A stretch of DNA of 64,000 bases, from the NCBI GenBank assembly GCA_918026815.1, contig CAKJVC010000172.1, positions 62,001 to 126,000 on the forward strand, given 5' to 3'. Of the stretch, positions 16,230 to 60,902 are shown one piece after another. The DNA is from Chalara sp. BL73. Its lineage: Eukaryota; Ascomycota; Leotiomycetes; Helotiales. The position numbers were made by a program, and so were the translations under genes. The notes beneath the pieces are model-generated. The model was not told the DNA's origin and did not search any database. It saw nothing but the letters and a program-made list of their open reading frames with translations. Numbering within the stretch: position 1 is the stretch's first letter; each line of letters starts with the position of its first letter.

Positions 16230-17342
16230 CTATGTGAAAGCGAGATTGCTCATATTGGTCAGCGTGTCTGGATGCTTTACGCCGCCCAGCACTTTCTTTC
16301 TGACTTCCAACATTTGAACTTCTAAATTTTCGGCCTTTTCCAAGCGCCCTTGATCCTTATATGTCAGAGCCAAGTTACCCATGCTAGTTAGCGTGTCCGG
16401 ATGCTCTACACCTAGCACTTTCTTTCTGATTTCCAATGCTTGCACTTCTAAATTTTCGGCTTCTTCTAAGCGTCCTTGATCCCAATATGTTGTAGCCAAG
16501 TTGGCCATGCTAATCAGCGTGTTTGGGTGCTCTGCGCCGAGCACTTTTTTTCTGATTCCTAATGCTTGCACTTCTAAATTTTCGGCCTTTTCTATGCGTT
16601 CTTGATTCCAATATATCGTAGCCAAGTTAGACATACTAATCAGCGTGTCTGGATGCTCTATGCCGAGCAATCTTTCCCTGATTTCTAGTACTTGTGCTTC
16701 TAAATTTTCGGCCTTTTCCAAAAGCCCTTGATCCGAATATGTCACAGCCAAGTTAGACATACTAGTCAGCGTGTCTGGGTGCTCTACGCCGAGCATTTTC
16801 TTTTTGATTTCAAGTACTTGTACTCCTAAATTATCGGCCTCTTCCAAGCGCCCTTGATCCCAATATGTTGTAGCCAAGTTAGACATACTAGCCAGCGTGT
16901 CTGGGTGCTCTATGCCTAGCACTTTTTTTCTGGTTTCCAATGCTTGCATTTCTAAATTTTCGGCCTTTTCCAAGCGTCCTTGATTCCAATATATCGTAGC
17001 CAAGCCAGACATACTAATCAGCGTGTCTGGATGCTTTACGCCTAGCACTTTCTTTCTGATTTCCAATGCTTGCATTTCTAAATTTTCGGCCTCTTCCAAG
17101 CGCCCTTGATTCCAATATATCGTAGCCAAGTTAGACATACTAGTCAGCGTGTCTGGATGCTCTACGCCGAGCACTTTTTTTCTGATCCCCAATGCTTGCA
17201 CTTCTAAATTTTTGGCCTCTTCCAAGCGCCCTTGATTTGCATATATCGTAGCCAACCTAGACATGCTAGTCAGCGTGTCTGGATGCTCCACGCCCAGTAC
17301 CCTCTGTTTTGCTCTGAGGACCTCAGTGTATTGGCCTTCAGC
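16230..17342 (-). repeat. 126-bp TPR-coding tandem repeats, nine units
   Basis: Nine consecutive 42-codon units. Units 2-8 occupy 16335-17216 with no length variation. Unit 9 has one extra glycine codon (L-G-G-V-K-H) and is cut by the stop. High identity between units points to recent duplication or concerted evolution, as known for fungal NLR repeat domains. Confidence 0.9.
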
Positions 17343-19437
17343 CTCGTTATACCGTCCATCACTTTCGAGACACTTCCCATATCTCCATGCTAGATCCCTT
17401 CTATCCTCCCCATCCATACCTGAGCTATTAGACATTAAAACATATCGCACATGCGGAAAGTAAGTTCTCCACAAAGTTCTGTTATTGTGGTCGTCGTCAG
17501 GAAATACTTCACTCATCCGCGAGATAGCTTTCTCTGTCCAATTCGCGGTCAGATTCTGTTGTCGAAGCCAGTTTCGTGTTGCGAGATGCACAAGTCGGTG
17601 AAGATCGAAAACTTGATCTGCTGATCGCTTAATGATGAATGAGTATGCTTTAAGAGTGCCGATCGCATCAGTCTCCCTTTTCCGAGACTGGCCTGCCGGA
17701 AGCAAAGACTGTGGTATGTCTTTCGAATCTATGCAGGCCATAAACGACAAGTAGTCGGCTGCTAAAAGATCATGCTGCCGAATCTGCTCAAATGAGATTA
17801 GCCATGTTGTGGCCACTGGATTTTTCACGTTGTAATATCTTCCGTCGTCTTCAAAATCTTCGCTAAGAAGCTCAATTACGTTTTCTTCTTGATCTGCCAA
17901 AAGAGATAGATATTCGGCAATCTGAATTCTATTCTCGTTGATATATGCTGTCGCCTGAACAATAGCGAGCGGGAGGTAAGTTAGTTCTTTTAGTAAAATA
18001 TTGGTATTTGTTCGATTGCTGACCAGGTCCGGATCGATTAGGCACTTCTGCAGCAAACGTGTAGCCGTATTTTCATCCATTTCAGGCACTTTTATAAGAT
18101 TCTTCTGTGCGAGCTTGACCGCTGCTTTCTGATCGCGTGTCGTGAAGATAATAAACCCGCGTTCACTCCTTGGGAGATATTCGATCAAACGATCAGACTC
18201 TTGTTCAGAAGCTGTCTTGCCAATCCACATGTCAATATTGTCCGCATTGTCAAATACCAAAAGCCACTGTCCAGCACTGGTTCTGCTTAGATAATCTTGA
18301 ACAAGTCTCTTGACATTTGCCTTCTCTTCTTCAGGTCCGGGTATACCAAGTTGCCGGGCCACCTTCAGGTATGCTTGGTGGAGACTCTCTTTGTTAGTCG
18401 CGGGAATCCAGATTATTGAGCACTTCTTATTTTTTTCTTTGATCCGGTACATCAGCTCAATCACTAATTGCGTCTTTCCTACACCTCCAAGCCCCGTAAC
18501 TGCGAGTTTGGTGGTATGGTTTTGATGGGATACCATTTCTTCCAGTTTTGCGAGCTGGATTGTGCGACCTGTGAAGTTGGGGTTTCTATTAAATGGTACA
18601 ATAAAATGACCGTCATTTTCTATCGAACACGAATAAGCTAAGTTCAAGTCATGTTGAATTCGCCCTACCTTCAGCACTATTCGGCTGACTGCTGCTCTTG
18701 GAGAATTCTCTGATAGTCATTTCCAGCCGTTTCTGTGCGGCCTCTTTCCCCTCACCATAAATCGGGGCCATCGACACTTCACATAGGCCTAATAAACAAT
18801 AAATCATATCCTCTTCTTCTGTTGTCTCACGGCATGCTGCCCATTCTATCCGTGCAGCTACGTTGAAGTCAGGCAAGGTATTTCCTGGCAAGGCCGCAAA
18901 TGGAATCCGTGTTATCTCATGAACCAGCATTCCGAGGGACCTTTTACTACCTAATCGCTTGCGGTCCTTGGAGAAAAATTCCACTACAGTCGGAGCAATA
19001 AGTTCTTGAAGTGTCCAGCCTCTGGTAAACCATTTACTCATCCGAAATGCCGCTTCCCATGTGGCTTGATCTATCAAGGATTCTTTGTTGGGGCTCGACG
19101 CTGACACATCCGCAAGATACACATAGCACTTGGTCGCATTTTGATACCAACGAAACATAGAATTAATCGCGGTTGTAAGCTCAGTATTGTTTGACTTATC
19201 TATGCAGCAAGTGTCTACCCAGAAGTATCGTAGGCCATCTCTGTGGGCTTGCTCTCCACAGAATTTGATCTTTTCATATCCAGCCTTATGCATTCCGGTC
19301 ATGCTGGTAAAATCCTGATATGTCACCTCTTCGCCATGGATCCAAGTGTGCGAAAGTATGGCATACGAAAGGTTATTGTGAGTAGGAACTTCGATGAGGC
19401 GGAAATTCCCTGGCCTGATGACCTCTAAGAGTCGCAT
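16230..19437 (-). CDS. HET/NB-ARC/TPR NOD-like receptor, C-terminally truncated
   Basis: Fungal NLR of the heterokaryon-incompatibility type, 1,052 aa as encoded. The start chosen is the ATG at 19437 (M-R-L-L-E-V), the usual beginning of HET proteins; an in-frame ATG at 19551 is less likely. Residues about 1-250 are the HET domain, with A-I-L-S-H-T-W, Y-F-W-V-D-T-C-C-I-D-K and W-F-T-R-G-W-T-L-Q-E-L. A 49-nt intron (gtaggg to ttcgatag, about 18665 to 18617) keeps phase into the NB-ARC domain, with P-loop G-L-G-G-V-G-K-T, Walker B L-L-V-F-D-N-A-D and T-T-R-D. The C-terminus is nine 42-residue TPRs, nearly identical (L-G-V-E-H-P-D-T-L core). The protein stops within the ninth repeat at a TAG in place of the tyrosine of the repeat, followed by 52 further open codons resembling the usual cap. 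Confidence 0.9.
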
Positions 19438-21904
19438 GCTGTAGGCTGAATCAGTTTGATTAAAACGAGAACTAAGCAACAGGACAAAATTTAATGGCTG
19501 TCTCATGGATATTGTGGACGATGTGTCTGGTAGTAGGCAGAAGATGCCCAATTACAAGACTGCCTTCTCATCACGTGTTGTGTATGCATGATGCATAATG
19601 CACTCGGATATGCTCAGTAAGGCCTCCAATGAAGTATTGCTGACTAACTGGAGAACTTGTGAAACCGGCAATAACAGCCGAGTATACTCCTGGCTCGTGG
19701 TTTCTTTTGCACGCATTCGACTTTCTGTAAACTTGAAACTTCTGTATAGCACACAAAGAATAAAGAATGAGATCCCCAAAGTTCAGTTCTTTTAGTTTCA
19801 GCAATAATGAAGCCATGGAAACATGACAATCATAACTTTTGCGTGGATTAATGGTCAGGGAGCATGAATATGAATGTGACTAAATGAGCTGTAATCCAAT
19901 TAATTGCGAGGATAATATCTCTTGGGAATAGAGAGGTTTTAACTTACCTTATCAGAAGTATAATTAGGCACTCACTCCTTGTTACTGTCATCTGGCTTGC
20001 CCCGTTACCCGAGGCACTCGATTGTATTTGTGCCTTACATATTGGGCAATAACTCCAGGACCATCAGCCATGCCCAGTAACCCTCAGGCACTAATGTCCT
20101 ATGGATATGTGACTAGTTTTAACACGGGCATAGGCTCTTTCACTTTATCACATAGCAAGCATCCTTAACTCAATTACAAAATTTGTGAACATCACGATCA
20201 ACCAGATGCGGATTGACATATTTTCCTTTACTAAAGTCTCTTTAATTCCACAATATTGGCTGCGCTTCAAGAAATTGAATATTGGACACCAACAAGATCG
20301 ACCCGAAATTCTCAGGCGGATAGGCATTCGCTCAATCTTGCATCCTCGATTCCAAATATCCATTACGGTGCCCCGCGCAGTTAAGAATATCTGAAAATGA
20401 AATTGCTTTGCGAGTCCTTGTTTAACGTAGACTTTGCGTCTACCCGAAAATGAGGCTTTGAGAGAACAGATAGGTAAACAATGTGAATAAGAAACCCAAG
20501 TCTTACAAAGCTACAAGCTACAAAACTATTCGCTGGCTAGTCAGATTCATGCTATAACGACTACATGCAAGAAGCAAAAGGTTAGGCTAATGAGACATTT
20601 AGCGGATGTGCTTTACTCGTGCCACCCTTAGTTGGCGCTGCCGTGCAGAGCGCTCTGGCATACACCGCGGATGTTACTGTTTCCAAATGTGCCATCTTTG
20701 GGCATCTTTTTAAGGACGAAACCGCTTTTTTCCCTTTTCTAGTGAGCAATATAGCTCCTATTAGTATAAATGAATATGCCTTTGGGCCACCGCCCGGAGA
20801 ACTACTTGTGTTACGGCCTGCCTGCCTGCCTGCCTATAATTGAGCTTTATGACCCGACTTCCACTTTGAAGATAGGGAATATACGCTTCCCAAACAAGAT
20901 ATTGAGATTTCGTCTTTGGCCAAGCCCAGAGTCAGCGCCATGTAGCGGATGGTCCGAAATCACCCTAGAGTCGTGTTTCAAGGTAGCGCATGCCATTCCA
21001 GAGCGTTACGTCACTTTTTGCAACGAAGGGCATCCCCAAGGGCCCCTATTAATAACTTATATCTTATTGGATATGTTCCTATCATAGCTCAAACTGTCAG
21101 CAGCGGGAGGCGTCCGCCTATGCATGTCAACAACATGCACTCACTACCAGAGGAAGCAAAAGCGAGGCTGAGCATGCCATTTCCCAAATAAAATATTAAA
21201 AGGTTGCCTTGGCTTTCTGATCTCTAAGCTCAGCATTCTTTTCAATGGTGGGAAATCGAAGATTGCATCGCGTTTGCCAAGATATCGGAAGGCAATTACG
21301 ATATCAAGGGTGGAAAAGGCGGGGGGAGGAAGATAACCTGCATCGGGTGTGTTGTATTCTGTGCATGTTTAGCGCTTTCGAACGGGTCGGCACTTGCTCT
21401 CTTCCTGCCGCCCTTGGCACACACGCTTCGGCATAGGTTTGTGCTATGGGCATGCATAAAATTCATAACCCCTTCATAATATTTTGCAACGGGCATCGCG
21501 GGATCTCAAGCTCCCAGCTTCGTGCATGTATGATGTGTGCAACGCTGCCATCATTACTGACGGCCTTGTGTGTAATAGGGTGACTCTGGTTTGCCGGCAG
21601 TATTATATTGGGGCCTGTCCTGAATCAGTTCTGCGCAGATCTACCTCTGGACTGAAGGATACCCAATGTTTCTTGTATACACCTGATACATTTTGATGCA
21701 ACATTTTCATAATGGAAAGCACGGCATATGCGCATCAAAAGAATTCTGGGTGAGGTCTATAGGTTCCTTCTATGCTTTTAGATAGAATGATTTAAATAAA
21801 TATGTTCATTCCCCTCTGCTTCACTCGTCCAACATTGAATCTTCTATTACTTTTTTCCAAGTTAAATCTCAATCAGATAAATAAGTTGCGTCTTCCGCGA
21901 CAAG
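19438..21904. other. Long intergenic region between NLR and P450
   Basis: About 2.5 kb without a gene I can support. It contains a CCTG microsatellite at 20817-20834 (4.5 copies). Several short ORFs look like chance. Confidence 0.5.
20817..20834. repeat. CCTG microsatellite
   Basis: Four and a half perfect tandem copies of cctg. Confidence 0.8.
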
Positions 21905-52044: not shown

Positions 52045-53977
52045 TGATTTAGACCCATATTGGATTCGATCTAAATAAATCGGAACCTGAACTATAAAGG
52101 AAAGCGAGAAGAACCTCAATTAGGTGGACTCTCATGTAAGTCGAATCGCAATGCTCGAAGTGTGGTCTATTCTAATCAAGCACAGAGCATGATATCCACC
52201 AAGAGCTGAGCCGCGAGGACGGTGAGAGGTGCAAATATAGGACTTATAACCCCTTTCGTCAGTAGTAGGGTAGCAGGAGGAGAATGATCGCTTGAGAACG
52301 TGTGGGGGTAGATACTGTTACTAGTGAAGACCCTAGCACGCCATTGTTAATGGAGATTCCATTCCGGTCCACCAAAACCAACATACTAAAGTTGCTTTGT
52401 GAAGCCTTCTAGTGTACTTTCCTATTCTCCCAATGCTCCACTCCATTCCCGATTGTATGATCGTTTAGGTTTAACGCCGCCGTTGAAGAGAAAGGGCATG
52501 CAAAATGCGGCACTGCGGTCTCCTCTGCGCATTCAATGTTTGGCTTGTCGTGTAGTCTCGGGCTGGAGTTTCAAGTCCTTCAGGAATATAAGGTATCGGA
52601 TAACGTTCGAAGTCCAAAATGTAGGATCTAACCTTTAGGATCTTGTGTCGTATCCTATTGTGTTGTTAGCCGAATTAGAACGCAATATAGCTTATTAGCC
52701 TGTTCACCAATGAAACCCCGCCTGTCTATCCCATCCTTCCTCTCAGCAAGTATTAAACATAACTTAGCTCTGCGTTTATAATCCTTCTGCAATGCCATTG
52801 CAATGATTAGACCCTCCACCCCTAGTCAAACGTGAAGGATTTGTTCCTGGGATCCGGCGAGGATGTCCACCTCGCATTCTCCAGACATGCATGGCACATC
52901 GGATTCCGAAGGGTCCTATTACAGACGCTATTGGACCATTTCAGCACAATGTGACATGATAGAGGTGTGCTGAGGTACCTGGGGCGAGGCAAATCAAAAT
53001 CGCAGAGTTGACATGAAGGCGACTGCGCCCGTGCCATTGTGCCAAGACACCATGTTAGCCTCACCAACTCACGGACCAGGAAAGTTCTCAACCACAAAAG
53101 TCGATATCACTGGCAGTGTGAAACTTATCTCCTCTCTTACCACGTCTCTTATATGAAGCGATAATTGCAGCACATACCAGAAAGCGCTCTTGCCTCTACT
53201 ATACGTGCGGAGTAGAAGCGCGGCTCCAATTTCGGCAAAGTGTTTTCAGACACAATGGCAGATCGATGAATTCTATGCCTTGGGTTATCTCGTGTCACTT
53301 TTCTTCGATGGGATATCTCTCAAGGCGAAGTACGTGGATATTTAGTTACTTGCCTTTGATGGCCAGGCTATGATGAAGCAAAGTTTGTTCTTGATTGAGC
53401 ACAGAAACTGACAACAACCTTAGAGTGCGGAAAATAAATGCATGTTAACTTTACAAGCCAATTGGCATATTATTATTTTAAAAGGCAGGTTGCTTCTCCC
53501 TTGGGTACTCCCAGTATTCCCTCTATAACATTCAAAGGGTTTTCTGTATATCATAATATAAAACAGGCTACTGTTTCAAAGCTTGCAGAGGGGCGCGATT
53601 TAGGAGTCTCACTCTCGTGCGACCTAGTTTAGGAGTACTGGATTGATTAGTAGTTAAAAGTTTAATCCTTTGAGTCTGTGGCTGCATTGTCAAAAGTCGA
53701 AAAGTCTTGACTCGAGCTAGAGTGGTTTCAGTGTTTCCACGGCCAAACCAACAATATACGTACGTTAATCACTGACGGCAGGTAGAGAAGAATCCAGGAA
53801 GGGTAACTAGATGATAAAGGACGGAAGTGATTCTATTAGTTCTATATCTCTGAGCCCCACTCTCACAAGCGAGGGCTGCGATAACCTTAAGCCACATCCC
53901 TCCAATCGGCCGCATGACAGATTTCCTAAGTGTATCACATTTTTTTCTCTTCTCATATTCAACAAGCAACTTTCATC
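52045..53977. other. Long intergenic region left of the RiPP-like cluster
   Basis: About 1.9 kb with no supported gene. A CGGCCG at about 53907 sits 70 bp upstream of the hydrolase start. Confidence 0.5.
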
Positions 53978-56253
53978 ATGGATGCCAAAGGAGTACATGG
54001 GCCGGCCTGCCATAGAGGTGGTACTTCTTTGGCAGCGCAAGAAAAACGAATGGGGAGGATGATCAGGCTGAGCCTTACACTTAGCGTGATCAGTCTGTAT
54101 CTCGTGACCCAGATGTTCTTGGTAATGTGGAAGAATGGCTCATTTGACTCTTTCGGCATGCATGCATCGTCACAGAAGGAATATCCAGAGAAGAGAGGCT
54201 GGTGGAGCGTACGGGCTCGGAGCCCTAGACTAGATTCCAGCTAACAAGCATCAGATAACCCCTACCACAGACTTAGTGTGGCATAACTGCTATGAGAAGT
54301 ATGACTGTGCAAAATTAGATGTAAGAGAAACCAAACTCGATATAATGAAATGTATTAGTTAAATCTGAAAATAGGTTCCGCTCGATTGGATTGATCCTTC
54401 AGATGAGCTTCGAACTTCAATAGCTATCATAAGATTTAATGCCACAGATCGAGAAAACTATAGAGGGCCAGTGTTCATTAATCCTGGTCTGTTTCTAGCC
54501 CTCTTAACTAGCATAAACTTACCAGGTGTACAGGCGGCCCTGGGGGATCTGGTGTGTGGTTTGTGAAACGCCTCGCACCTTACTATCAAATGGTTGTTGG
54601 GAAGAATCACGTAAGATGCCTTATGAACGTTCTGAACAATATTCTAATGGCCCTCGGCTTAGGATATCATCAGCTTCGATCCTCGTGGCGGTGAGTGATG
54701 TTCTTTCTGCGTAGAGCTGTGACCCTTGTAAGCTCATCCTTCTAGTGGGAAAATCCATGCCTCGAATCGACTGCTGGGAATCCGACGAGAATGCTCGCAT
54801 CTGGGAAATGAAAGATGCAGAAGTCATCGATGCCCATCCGGGTACATTGTATGATGCCTATGCTCATGCTTCGGCCTTCTCAAAGCAATGTGCAAGTATG
54901 ATTGGGGGTGGCAACCGGACAAGCACGCTTCTGTCGGATAGAAGTCTAGCGGAAGCAGGTCCTGGTAGGTTTGTCTCAACGGCATCTGTGGCCCGTGATA
55001 TGCTTGAAATTATGGAAAAGGCTGGCCAGAAAAAGTTGAGATACTGGGGCTTTAGCTATGGCACGGTGTTAGGGACCACGTTTGCAACAATGTTTCCGGA
55101 CAGAATCGATCGAATGGTAAATGACGGTACGTTTTAGCTTGATTTGATAGAAACTTCCTAATGTGTGTAGGTAACGTAGATGCAGTAGAGTTTACCGCAG
55201 GAAATGGTACACACTTCGTTCAAGATACAGATAAGGTTATGGATGCATTCTACCGATTCTGCCATCAGGCTGGCCCTGAAAACTGCACATTTTATGCCTC
55301 ATCGCCTAGAGAGATCGAGACTAGACTAGAACGCCTTCTAAAAACCATTCGAAAGCATCCAATCATCGTTCCAGCTCCGCAGTTCTCCAACAAGAGGCCC
55401 GAAGTGGTGTCTTTCTCCTCCGTACGGCGTATGATCGCCAGTGCACTATACAGGCCATTGTTGATGTTTCCTTCACTCGCAGACGCTCTTGCAGCGCTCG
55501 AAGAAGGTAACGGGCGTCCATTTATCGATTTCTCCGGCCAGGGAGCTGGGGATCCCATTCTCTGTGAAAACGAGCCTGGCCCAACACCTGAACTACCAGA
55601 AGTAGAAGACTCCCCAGATGCTACTAACGCAATCCTTTGCTCCGATGGTGGGCTTATGGCAGATACTGCTGATGAATTTGGAGGTTATGTAGATAAGTTG
55701 GTAGCTTTGAGCAAGAGCGCAGGAGCCACAATGGCACACATGCGGTTAGCATGTATGGGTTGGACGGTTGAGGCAAAATGGAGATTCGCAGGTATGGAAA
55801 TCCGATATTCTCGTCATATGATTCTGACAAATCGCGTTAGGTCCATTTGAAGGAAACACCAGCTTCCCAATCTTGTGGGTGGCAAACACAGGAGATAACG
55901 TAACACCTCTACGGAGTGCAGTGCAAAATGCCAAAGGATTTCCAGGATCTGTGGTCCTTGTTCTCGATACTTATGGTGTAAGTTTTGCTCCTCATGCATA
56001 TAATATACACTTGTGATGCTGATTAGATAAATAGCACACAAGCTTAGCCATGCCATCACGATGCACAGCAAAGGCAATTAATGCATATTTCCAAGACGGA
56101 AAGCTCCCGCCACCAGATACCGTCTGTGATCCAGATATGATGCCGTTTGATAAATTCAACATTACGGTTGTCCGTCCCGGCAGCAGCGACGCGAACGAAG
56201 AATTAGACTCTGCTTTACTGAACTTGATGTTAGCCCCGGTTATCAAGCCATGA
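53978..56253 (+). CDS. Alpha/beta hydrolase, peptidase S33/TAP-like, membrane-anchored
   Basis: Serine hydrolase of the tripeptidyl-aminopeptidase-like S33 group. The start at 53978 precedes a single hydrophobic segment (I-R-L-S-L-T-L-S-V-I-S-L-Y-L), suggesting a type II membrane anchor. Eight or so exons join in phase: W-W-S to I-T-P-T-T-D; A-K-L-D to V-P-L-D-W; N-P to G-G-P-G-G-S-G (oxyanion loop); then D-I-I-S-F-D-P-R-G-V-G. The nucleophile elbow is W-G-F-S-Y-G-T. The catalytic Asp lies in V-A-N-T-G-D-N-V-T-P-L and the His in D-T-Y-G-H-T-S, within the TAP-like C-terminal domain. All three catalytic residues are present. It ends 559 bp from the convergent UstYa-like gene. Its place in the putative RiPP cluster makes trimming of the peptide a reasonable hypothesis. 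Confidence 0.85.
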
Positions 56254-58078: not shown

Positions 58079-58426
58079 CCCCTGTCAGAGTTGCCCAAGA
58101 TTTAGAGAGGAGAAAAGCAATGTAACTTCATAATGGTTGCACACGAAAAACAAAACGTTACTATACATGACCAAACTAAGCTGCATCTAGCCGCCTATCG
58201 CGCTTCACTCCAAGGCTCTGCAGTCTGAAGTGTTTTTTTCTTATGTTGAGGCCAAACGGCATCGCTCATATAAACTACATAAACAGTCACAGTCTCCCAA
58301 TTCTCCAAGTTCCAATGTCCATCGCTTTAATAAGCATAGATCGGTGCTTAAGGTAGTCCATGACACAGAGTAACCAACTGCCGTTAACTAGGTCGATGAT
58401 GTTGCAAAAGTCGGAAGCATGATATA

Positions 58427-58440
58427 TGCGGCTCGCCGCA
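58427..58440. promoter_or_regulatory. Perfect palindrome TGCGG-CTCG-CCGCA (CGG-N4-CCG)
   Basis: The arms TGCGG and CCGCA are perfect reverse complements flanking a 4-nt centre. CGG inverted pairs at fixed spacing are the known recognition form for Zn2Cys6 dimers. It is about 350 bp from both divergent starts. Confidence 0.5.
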
Positions 58441-58703
58441 ACACATTTGATGGCACACGACATTTTTGCAGTACTTGATTCCGCTACCTTTAAACCTTGA
58501 CAGTCTATGACGCCTACTCCCTTAGGTGGGAACGATTTGTGACTTGTTAGGCGTTTGAAGTACGGCATACTTGCTAAGAGTAGGTCGCAGCACAAGCAGG
58601 ATAGTACAGCCATAGTGGCATGATTATTATCTGAGTATGCATTCTACGTTATCGTGTGTTCTACAGCGCTACTTTAGTTCCGAGTCCTGCGTCACCTATT
58701 TTG

Positions 58704-58733
58704 TATTTAAGGGCGGCTTTCCGCTCTTAAATA
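58704..58733. promoter_or_regulatory. 30-bp inverted repeat containing CGG-N4-CCG
   Basis: Two 13-bp arms (left tatttaagggcgg) match as reverse complements at 12 of 13 positions around a CTTT centre, giving CGG-CTTT-CCG in the middle. It ends 60 bp upstream of the precursor ATG. Confidence 0.6.
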
Positions 58734-58793
58734 CCGTAGAGATACCAATCGATCCAACAGTTTATATTAAGAGATCATTTACCACATCAAAAT

Positions 58794-59212
58794 ATGCATT
58801 TCGTCAAGTTCGCCACCATCCTCAGTCTTTCTTTTTTCACTGTTGCTCTCCCACTCTACGATGCATCTTCGTCAAGCTCGGCCAATGCCGATTCACAGCT
58901 CCAGAAACGGCTTGCAACATACCTGCTCTCAGATGGAGAAGTGCAGAAGCGGCTCGCGACGTACGCGCTTTCTGACGGAGAATTAGAGAAAAGATTTGCC
59001 ACTTATATACTCTCCGATGAAGAGCTGGAGAAACGGTAAGACGTCCTTCCTCATTCCAGCTAAATTTCAAACGCAACAAGAAAGTTCTAGGACTCTAGGT
59101 CCTGATGCTAATATTTATATGTAGATTCGCAACGTATCTTGTAGATCTTCCAACGGAGGTGGCGAGCAGGGGAATGGCAACAGACGTTATCGGTGTTGGA
59201 CGGAAGGCATGA
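58794..59212 (+). CDS. Secreted RiPP precursor with Kex2-spaced repeats
   Basis: Likely ribosomal peptide precursor of dikaritin type, 109 aa from exons 58794-59035 and 59125-59212. Residues 1-19 are a signal peptide (M-H-F-V-K-F-A-T-I-L-S-L-S-F-F-T-V-A-L). A Ser-rich leader ends in K-R at 38-39. Three 14-residue units follow, each [L/F]-A-T-Y-x-L-S-D-[G/E]-E-x-x-K-R (residues 40-81), so every unit is released by Lys-Arg cleavage as known for Kex2. A fourth, divergent copy starts F-A-T-Y-L-V-D-L-P and has no terminal K-R. The 89-nt intron splits the last Arg codon of unit 3. Invariant Tyr at position 4 suits the Tyr-based ether cyclisation known from ustiloxin-type peptides. The adjacent UstYa-like gene supports this. 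The core sequence is not one I recognise; biological activity is unknown. Confidence 0.85.
58911..59151 (+). repeat. 42-bp core-peptide repeats, three and a partial fourth
   Basis: Tandem 14-codon units at 58911-58952, 58953-58994 and 58995-59124 (the last interrupted by the intron in its final codon), then the diverged copy from 59126. Coordinates of unit borders are set by the Lys-Arg codons. Confidence 0.75.
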
Positions 59213-59646
59213 AAGATTGAATTTGAGAAATATATAGCCAGACTGAAGCTATTTCAAGACGCTCTTTGTACCTCCCCAAATTCGATGGCTAGAATATATC
59301 ATGTTGCAATCAAAGCCGGTTGTCAAGGACAATATCAAGATAGATCACATGATTTCAGTGGGCCAACTATCCTCCGGCTACTAGCCGCACTTATGCATTG
59401 CGAAAGATCAACAACTTTTTTTTTTTAATTTCTCAGGGATTAGTTTTATTTTATTAATTACTGTTTATTTAAGCTTTTAGAATAATATTACTTTTACTGT
59501 GTACTCTCAAGCCTATGTTTACCGCTGGTGACCCTTACACCGCCCCTTTTCCGCTCGCTTAACGGATCGACACGCTCACGTCGTCCCACTTGCAAACTCT
59601 GCAAAAAAATTAGTAGAAAAAATGCTAAAAAAGCAGATGAAATATT
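59213..59646. other. Intergenic
   Basis: 3' flank of the precursor, including a poly-T tract near 59417. Nothing else seen. Confidence 0.5.
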
Positions 59647-59717
59647 GACCTGCGCAGGGATCGAACCTGCAATCTCCTGATTCGTAGTCAGACGCCTTGC
59701 CATTGGGCCAGCAGGCC
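59647..59717 (-). tRNA. tRNA-Arg (ACG)
   Basis: 71 nt on the minus strand, no intron. Acceptor arms GGCCTGC and GCAGGTC pair with one G-U. Anticodon arm CTGA-CTACGAA-TCAG has T33 and anticodon ACG; the T-arm is TGCAGG-TTCGATC-CCTGCG-like. It sits inside the putative cluster, between the precursor and the flavin oxidoreductase. Confidence 0.92.
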
Positions 59718-60902
59718 ATACTTTGTTGCATATCTGAGTTTTGCGTTTTGTATTTGGCTACATACGTAGAATAAAAACCAGCTGTATGGGATAACAGGGC
59801 GGCAGAGGCACCCCTGAACTGGAGCGATACTTCTAAACCCTCATAATGTTTAATTATTTTGCGGAGATCCTTTGAAAGATCAGTAGTTATTTCAGGAAAC
59901 GAAAACATACCAATGCTCGCCTCGCTCCGCAGGTCTCTCCAGTAGCGCTGATCGAGCTTGCTTCTATACTAATTGCCCTTTATATGTATATTAGTTACCA
60001 TAGGAGACCTACGGGATATCATGCCTTTCACTCCGGGATCTGTAGATTCACCTCCTTACAGGCTCCACCTTCCCGCGCCAGACTACATCATAAGGAGCAC
60101 TATGGTGCATCGATATGTTTTAATCCGACGCTGCCTGCTTCCTGTAGCAGCCATTTCAGAAAAATATGTTTACACATCAATTTTGCCAGTTGATATGGCT
60201 GATGCTAGCCTCTAATCCTGGCCAAGTCTCTGGCGTTAAGCCATTTAGCATTTGGCGCACATAATTTTAGCCTTAGGTCCGCAAACAAGTCAGGAAAACA
60301 AAAATAATTTGTCCCCCTTTTTATATCAATAAGGCTGTGATTCATTAGAATACAACAGCTGGCCATACAACCCGCTTGTCGTTTAATCCGGGCTCCCACA
60401 ATTATTTTGGAACAATGTATACAATGGGCCTATCTTCAGATTCGTTATGGGAGGACTCATTATGAAACCATTGGATTAAGTACTGCCACTTTCTCATAAA
60501 ATGCCCTGGGCCTTTCCATAATCAAAGCAGGAAATCTTCCGACTCCGCCTTGGCATTTGCAATATGGCTTACGGTAGCTCAATATCATATGCAGCGTCAT
60601 GCATACATGCTTATTAACATATAATTTTCACTGTCCATTGGCTACCGTATGTATCTCGAAAGTACCGTGGTCTTTTGCTTCAAGATAACGGGGCTCCGGC
60701 AAGCCAATATAGCAGTACTATTCACAAATGCGGGATAAACGGGAAGTCCAAGGCATTGTTCTATAAATCCCACATCTCCCCTCAGCATTTCCATATCGAA
60801 TATGATATACTACCATTTTATATTGATTTGATCGGCACCCAACAGTTTATCCTTCCTTGACACCTCGAGTTATTCCTTTGTCATATTAATTATACACGCA
60901 CC
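59718..60902. other. Intergenic, flavin oxidoreductase promoter side
   Basis: No gene supported. It includes a CGG-N4-CCG element at 60689-60698, listed separately. Confidence 0.5.
60689..60698. promoter_or_regulatory. CGG-GGCT-CCG element
   Basis: Inverted CGG pair with 4-nt spacing, the same geometry as the two elements between oxidase and precursor, about 205 bp upstream of the flavin oxidoreductase ATG. Confidence 0.4.

Follow-up and report, generated by a model that had tools for sequence, protein, structure and literature searches.

A repeat precursor gene of Chalara sp. BL73 and the UstYa-family gene (PF11807, DUF3328; UstY hereafter) lying head-to-head with it probably form a dikaritin-type RiPP locus, in which a secreted precursor is cut by Kex2 and the tyrosine at position 4 of its units (Tyr4) is cross-linked by the UstY to give three related cyclic peptides. 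The locus lies in the window, the whole stretch of 64,000 nucleotides that was analysed (positions 62001-126000 of contig C150, in a genome of 58.66 Mb and 199 contigs). At the sequence level this reading draws on three units closed by Lys-Arg (KR) and a fourth without KR, on the intact predicted exons of the UstY gene and on orthologs of both genes in Bisporella. Systems of this type are already known from many fungi, and the peptide sequence alone looks new. 

Only five dikaritins had been reported by 2022 (PMC10512285), against a genome survey in which 1758 of 7878 repeat precursors (KEPs) had a DUF3328 gene nearby (PMC7329392). Because the locus is small and intact (one precursor, one UstY), has units that correspond one-to-one in a second fungus and has exact predicted masses, it would make a convenient test case for the residue to which a UstY joins Tyr in a Y-x-L core instead of Y-x-I.

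Structure of the precursor gene

The forward strand between positions 58794 and 59212 encodes a protein of 109 residues after removal of an 89-nt GT-AG intron (translation of 58794-59035 and 59125-59212), with the residue order leader MHFVKFATILSLSFFTVALPLYDASSSSSANADSQLQKR, LATYLLSDGEVQKR, LATYALSDGELEKR, FATYILSDEELEKR, FATYLVDLPTEVAS, RGMATDVIGVGRKA (Table 1). The spliced open reading frame bears out the original prediction of a 109-residue precursor with three KR-closed units of 14 residues and a diverged fourth. Left unspliced, the frame runs into a stop codon directly after the KR of the third unit and gives 81 residues; units 1-3 stand in both readings. KR closes the three 14-residue units, and unit 4 (FATYLVDLPTEVAS) is without it. 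By hydropathy alone the N-terminus has its best 12-residue mean, 2.04, at residue 8, which is consistent with a signal peptide. The precursor holds neither Trp nor Cys, and all four units in the window start with X-Ala after KR, the Ste13 signature. A tRNA-Arg (ACG) gene lies about 430 bp downstream, at 59645-59718 on the minus strand.

Table 1. Positions of the precursor, the UstY gene, neighbouring features and two further precursors (window positions unless a contig is named).
Feature	Position	Strand	Remarks
Precursor exon 1: hydrophobic start, then Ser-rich leader with KR at its end, units 1-3	58794..59035	+
Likely signal peptide, residues 1-19 (end is a guess)	58794..58850	+	from hydropathy
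Unit 1, LATYLLSDGEVQKR	58911..58952	+
Unit 2, LATYALSDGELEKR	58953..58994	+
Unit 3, FATYILSDEELEKR	58995..59035	+	predicted intron interrupts the final Arg codon, whose remainder is at 59125
Predicted intron, 89 nt, GTAAGA...ATGTAG	59036..59124	+	frame change of related P0002 falls within the intron
Precursor exon 2: unit 4, diverged, FATYLVDLPTEVAS (59126-59167), followed by tail and stop codon	59125..59212	+
UstYa-family gene, 310 aa	56812..58078	-	PF11807, 165 bits
UstY predicted exons	58078-57835, 57693-57470, 57423-57382, 57333-57320, 57220-56812	-	GT-AG introns
Shared divergent promoter region, UstY/precursor, 715 bp	58079..58793	.
Palindrome, 32 nt, 14-nt arms 93% complementary, 4-nt loop	58703..58734	.	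candidate regulator site
GCGG-N4-CCGC sites	58713-58724, 58428-58439		first at centre of the 32-nt palindrome
Alpha/beta hydrolase, TAP-like C-terminus	53930..56253 (limits approximate)	+	PF00561, PF08386; convergent with UstY
FMN oxidoreductase	61.2-62.5 kb
Methyltransferase	47.1-47.9 kb
Aspartyl protease	45.4-46.3 kb
C8 precursor (L047, C8:231000-240999)	3410-2948 of that locus	-	UstY from about 4169, plus strand
C14 precursor (L050, C14:618000-626999)	2768-2317 of that locus	-	UstY from about 3723, plus strand

Relatives and conservation of the repeat

A search of 5.8 billion proteins yielded 290 candidates, of which two are relatives of the precursor at E <= 1. One, P0001, is a hypothetical protein of 81 aa from Bisporella sp. 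PMI_857 (Helotiales, Leotiomycetes) that is identical at 70 of 81 residues, keeps four KR sites and ends after the fourth, which closes its third unit. The other, P0002, is a metagenome fragment of 64 aa. Its C-terminal end matches the exon-2 peptide except for 3 of 28 residues, and the one frame in which it is read spans two frames of the window, the change falling inside the intron, which is read through in another frame. These two features of P0002 point to a coding exon 2 and a non-coding intron. The splice appears to have been overlooked in both public models, one ending after the third unit and the other reading the intron into exon 2. When the query was padded to 239 residues so as to catch longer precursors built from such units, none of 783 candidates reached E <= 10. 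Five unit sequences were not found in the literature searched, although the precursor or its ortholog may appear in the KEP tables that supplement PMC7329392 and PMC6339444. Among the titles listed on UstY, DUF3328 or RiPPs in Bisporella, the Helotiales or the Leotiomycetes, none concerns this locus. The core sequence is thus new as far as these protein and literature searches reach.

Compared in order, the units of the window and of Bisporella agree at 13/14, 14/14 and 12/14 residues, a sum of 39, and any other pairing sums to 33 at most. The units have therefore not been homogenised between the two fungi, and three distinct peptides have been kept. Within the window, fewer residues are shared (11/14 between units 1 and 2, 9/14 between 1 and 3, 11/14 between 2 and 3). 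The original prediction placed the variation at unit positions 1, 5 and 9-12; it is found at 1, 5, 9, 11 and 12, but position 10 is Glu throughout units 1-3, and the variation is not confined to these positions in Bisporella, where positions 2 and 6 also vary. The invariance claimed for Tyr4, the diverged unit included, stands: Thr3 and Tyr4 are the sole unchanging positions across all seven units seen. Residue 6, two after Tyr4, is always Leu in units 1-3 here; the Bisporella units have Leu, Leu and Arg there and start with LV, LA and FT, so that X-Ala occurs in one of the three.

A scan for similar units spaced by Lys/Arg-Arg, run over the window and 44 loci (297,506 bases, partly overlapping the window), had the precursor reading frame as its sole match, and three passes over residue-shuffled sequence had none. 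The 81 residues of exon 1 match only their own place in the genome at E <= 0.001. Between any two of units 1-3, 13-16 of 42 nucleotides differ, mostly silently (for units 1 and 2, 1 and 3, and 2 and 3, respectively, pS is 0.94, 0.71 and 1.19, and pN is 0.13, 0.17 and 0.13). When equal numbers of nucleotide changes were placed at random in 20,000 trials, the expected amino-acid changes were 8.2, 7.8 and 9.2 for these pairs, against 3, 5 and 3 in the real units (P as printed 0.0000, 0.0338 and 0.0000). With silent sites near saturation and so few changes in the protein, the repeat is old, coding and selected as a peptide. For unit 4 against units 1-3 constraint is not significant (P 0.10-0.23), and this unit may be decaying or have another role.

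The adjoining UstYa-family gene

The start codons of the UstY gene and the precursor gene are 715 bp apart. The UstY protein carries two HxxHC motifs, HQIHC and HLTHC, and a predicted membrane span near residue 56; its first exon and intron were picked among eight frame-keeping splices as those keeping this span. A reading of the gene as disrupted at the first HxxHC motif, which followed from a one-intron join, was rejected when tblastn against the Bisporella protein P0003 showed a missed mini-exon. Since two GT-AG introns around the mini-exon give a full and unaltered reading, the UstY is treated as intact. A single DUF3328 gene adjoins the precursor rather than several, the contig having one PF11807 place.

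Over the 132 residues searched, the UstY is 95% identical to P0003. The contigs bearing P0003 and P0001 are both 166,447 bases long, and the pair is therefore very probably linked in Bisporella too. The only other relative found was P0004, 74% identical and on a contig of 668 bases. No solved structure matched the UstY by sequence at E <= 0.1, and an AlphaFold2 model of the Bisporella protein, built from three alignment rows, reached a pLDDT of 30.9 and was discarded. The UstY is named as the partner of the precursor from its position; with 89 exon-level PF11807 places in the genome, another UstY could act instead.

Comparison with known dikaritins and related precursors

In working terms a dikaritin is defined by a KEP precursor together with a UstYa homolog (PMC9632046; PMC10512285). 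By its sequence the locus agrees with this definition in its tandem repeats between kexin sites, where 10 residues or more are asked for and the three units have 14, and in a nearby DUF3328/UstYa gene whose product carries two HxxHC motifs. The definition also names an N-terminal signal peptide, which hydropathy makes likely here, and a product cyclised by the UstYa homolog, which is a prediction for this locus. The designation of the gene as a dikaritin-type RiPP precursor is thus supported by its KR-closed tandem units, its hydrophobic N-terminus and the UstYa-family gene beside it. An older, five-gene definition includes a tyrosinase, multiple DUF3328 proteins, a methyltransferase, and a transporter or peptidase (PMC12048977). 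Two of these were not found, with no tyrosinase match and only one PF11807 place on C150; the methyltransferase of Table 1 and the TAP-like hydrolase (53.9-56.3 kb) are at most candidate members of the cluster.

Like those of ustiloxin, phomopsin and asperipin-2a, the locus has a leader that is predicted to direct secretion, units of roughly 14 residues that close in KR and each hold a Tyr, and next to the precursor a UstYa-family gene whose product carries two HxxHC motifs; for UstA, cleavage into 13/14-mers is assumed (PMC6514808). The core, however, is (L/F)ATY(L/A/I)LSD here and EDYxI or FYYTGY in those systems, and the original prediction that it differs from the ustiloxin and phomopsin cores is upheld by ATYxL against EDYxI (PMC6339444). 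There are also three clear units where UstA has 16, and a single UstY, compared with two for ustiloxin and five for phomopsin (PMC7329392). The lower-bound searches gave neither a tyrosinase (PF00264) nor an S41 match on C150, against at least 39 tyrosinase matches and at least one weak S41 match in the genome. The single UstY homolog recalls the minimal cluster of asperipin-2a, from which the locus differs in its unrelated core and in having the TAP-like hydrolase instead of a reductase; a general Pfam scan of 36 stretches, not directed at the reductase by name, contained no asperipin-type reductase. By eye, there is a likeness to the KEPs of Le Marquer 2019 with the core DADAATXYV[A/V]D (PMC6339444), which have Ala-Thr near Tyr and then aliphatic residues and Asp, but the spacing is AT-x-Y there and AT-Y here. 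KEP cores are highly diverse, and DUF3328 genes peak next to KEP genes (PMC7329392).

Proposed maturation of the peptides

By analogy with the family, the precursor would be secreted and then cut by Kex2 after each Lys-Arg, and Kex1 would trim the units to LATYLLSDGEVQ, LATYALSDGELE and FATYILSDEELE. As linear, singly protonated peptides these have calculated m/z values of 1308.668, 1281.621 and 1429.673; a cross-link would lower each by 2.016, and removal of the leading X-Ala would give 1124.547, 1097.500 and 1211.568. The UstY would carry out a copper-dependent oxidation at Tyr4 of each unit. Members of its family are said to be dicopper enzymes that form, in asperipin-2a, an ether between a Tyr oxygen and a Phe beta-carbon (PMC12186524). 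Tyr is present in 65.6% of repeats with a DUF3328 gene nearby and in 38.2% of those without (PMC7329392). The cross-link may be an ether joining the phenol of Tyr4 and the residue 6 beta-carbon (i, i+2). We propose this bond tentatively, at somewhat short of even confidence, because the first and third core residues of ustiloxin and phomopsin, the Tyr and Ile of their Tyr-x-Ile cores, are joined (PMC7329392). The Arg at position 6 of the third Bisporella unit weakens it for that unit. Final trimming might be a Ste13-type loss of the leading X-Ala or the work of the TAP-like hydrolase, a possible trimming peptidase; both are guesses.

The X-Ala dipeptides sit uneasily with this scheme. According to PMC6339444, epichloecyclin precursors and those of toxic cyclic peptides lack the Ste13 signature, and its presence in four window units counts against a cyclic product, while Bisporella keeps it in one unit of three and keeps the UstY. 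We think it unlikely, for all that, that the units are released as linear, unmodified hormone- or pheromone-like peptides by Kex2, Kex1 and Ste13 with the neighbouring UstY acting elsewhere. Ascomycete alpha-pheromone peptides have the pattern WCxxxGQxC, and a precursor without Trp or Cys is unlike it. Their precursors do share X-Ala after KR with all four units of the window, and KEPs with a Ste13 signature are regarded as hormone candidates, the signature being absent from cyclic toxin precursors (PMC6339444); yet X-Ala is missing from two of the three Bisporella units while the UstY ortholog is 95% identical over the piece searched, and alpha-pheromone precursors differ further from the gene here with its UstY neighbour. 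Pheromone-annotated KEPs with DUF3328 neighbours number three cases only (PMC7329392). Pheromone types other than the alpha pattern exist (PMC6339444), and a genome search for the alpha-pheromone DNA pattern was uninformative (one place, a 44-aa frame without repeats, against two for the reversed control). Because the units carry the alpha-pheromone Ste13 dipeptide and adjoin a UstY, they might instead be trimmed to T-Y-x-L-S-D with Tyr locked to the second residue after it, giving three cross-linked signals rather than a toxin. We hold this cyclised hormone to be quite improbable; it would, if true, bridge linear pheromone KEPs and dikaritins, an evolutionary step proposed in PMC7329392.

Two readings without a cyclic product have still less to recommend them over the dikaritin-type locus. 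That the locus is a relic or silent, with an intact sequence but no expression or no processing in Chalara, is very unlikely: units 1-3 are conserved as protein against near-saturated silent sites, and precursor and UstY both read intact and have close Bisporella orthologs. In favour of a relic, the protein search at E <= 1 gave two relatives and no more, and one of these is a fragment read in the wrong frame. A structural repeat protein cut by Kex2 into pieces that cover the hyphae, like Rep1 of Ustilago maydis (PMC7329392), would fit a signal-like N-terminus and Kex2 repeats taken alone, but the three short acidic units, the linkage to a UstY and unit identities that stay distinct between two fungi make it highly improbable.

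Other UstY loci in the genome

A looser repeat scan of 50 loci (283,533 bases) gave three repeat precursors, on C150, C8 and C14, against 0, 0, 0, 1 and 3 in five passes over shuffled sequence, and each of the three lies head-to-head with a UstY. The C8 precursor has a signal-like start and the cores IYNVD, IYGFE, IYGFE and KYAFK, and its UstY is 56% identical to P0003 over 72 aa. The C14 precursor, in a model of 132 aa, has long units with ATYLDPENGLYP, ATYVDAENGLYP and AAYLDAELGLYP. The ATY likeness of the C150 precursor is not significant to either (P 0.14 for C14, 0.99 for C8).

Six P0003-matching UstY loci were viewed with at least 8 kb, and a precursor is present at C150, C8 and C14:622k; none was found at C86:34k, C172:9k or C60:2.7k. 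For the matches on C41, C107, C62 and C181 the view covered about 1.5 kb to either side. No repeat precursor turned up at ten weaker PF11807 places (L035-L044). Some UstY matches have identical scores on different contigs (C62:2040005 and C181:3489; C11:5072, C156:2857 and C10:578230), several near contig ends, and are perhaps duplicated copies.

Promoter region and other neighbours

The 32-nt palindrome in the shared promoter folds at a z of -5.5, and we take it to resemble the binding site of a zinc-cluster regulator, as a candidate. The pattern GCGG-N4-CCGC, which was chosen after sight of the sequence, occurs three times in the window where 0.54 are expected, a count attained in 2 of 100 shuffles, and two of the three sites lie within the 715-bp promoter. 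It is absent from 47 of 49 loci, the two that have it overlapping the window, and CGG-N4-CCG is not enriched in the window (10 against 6.77 expected). The promoter of the C8 pair contains neither pattern. Elsewhere in the window (16230-19551, minus strand), a HET-domain frame lies next to an NB-ARC/TPR-repeat frame whose TPR units are very regular, perhaps together an incompatibility-type immune gene.
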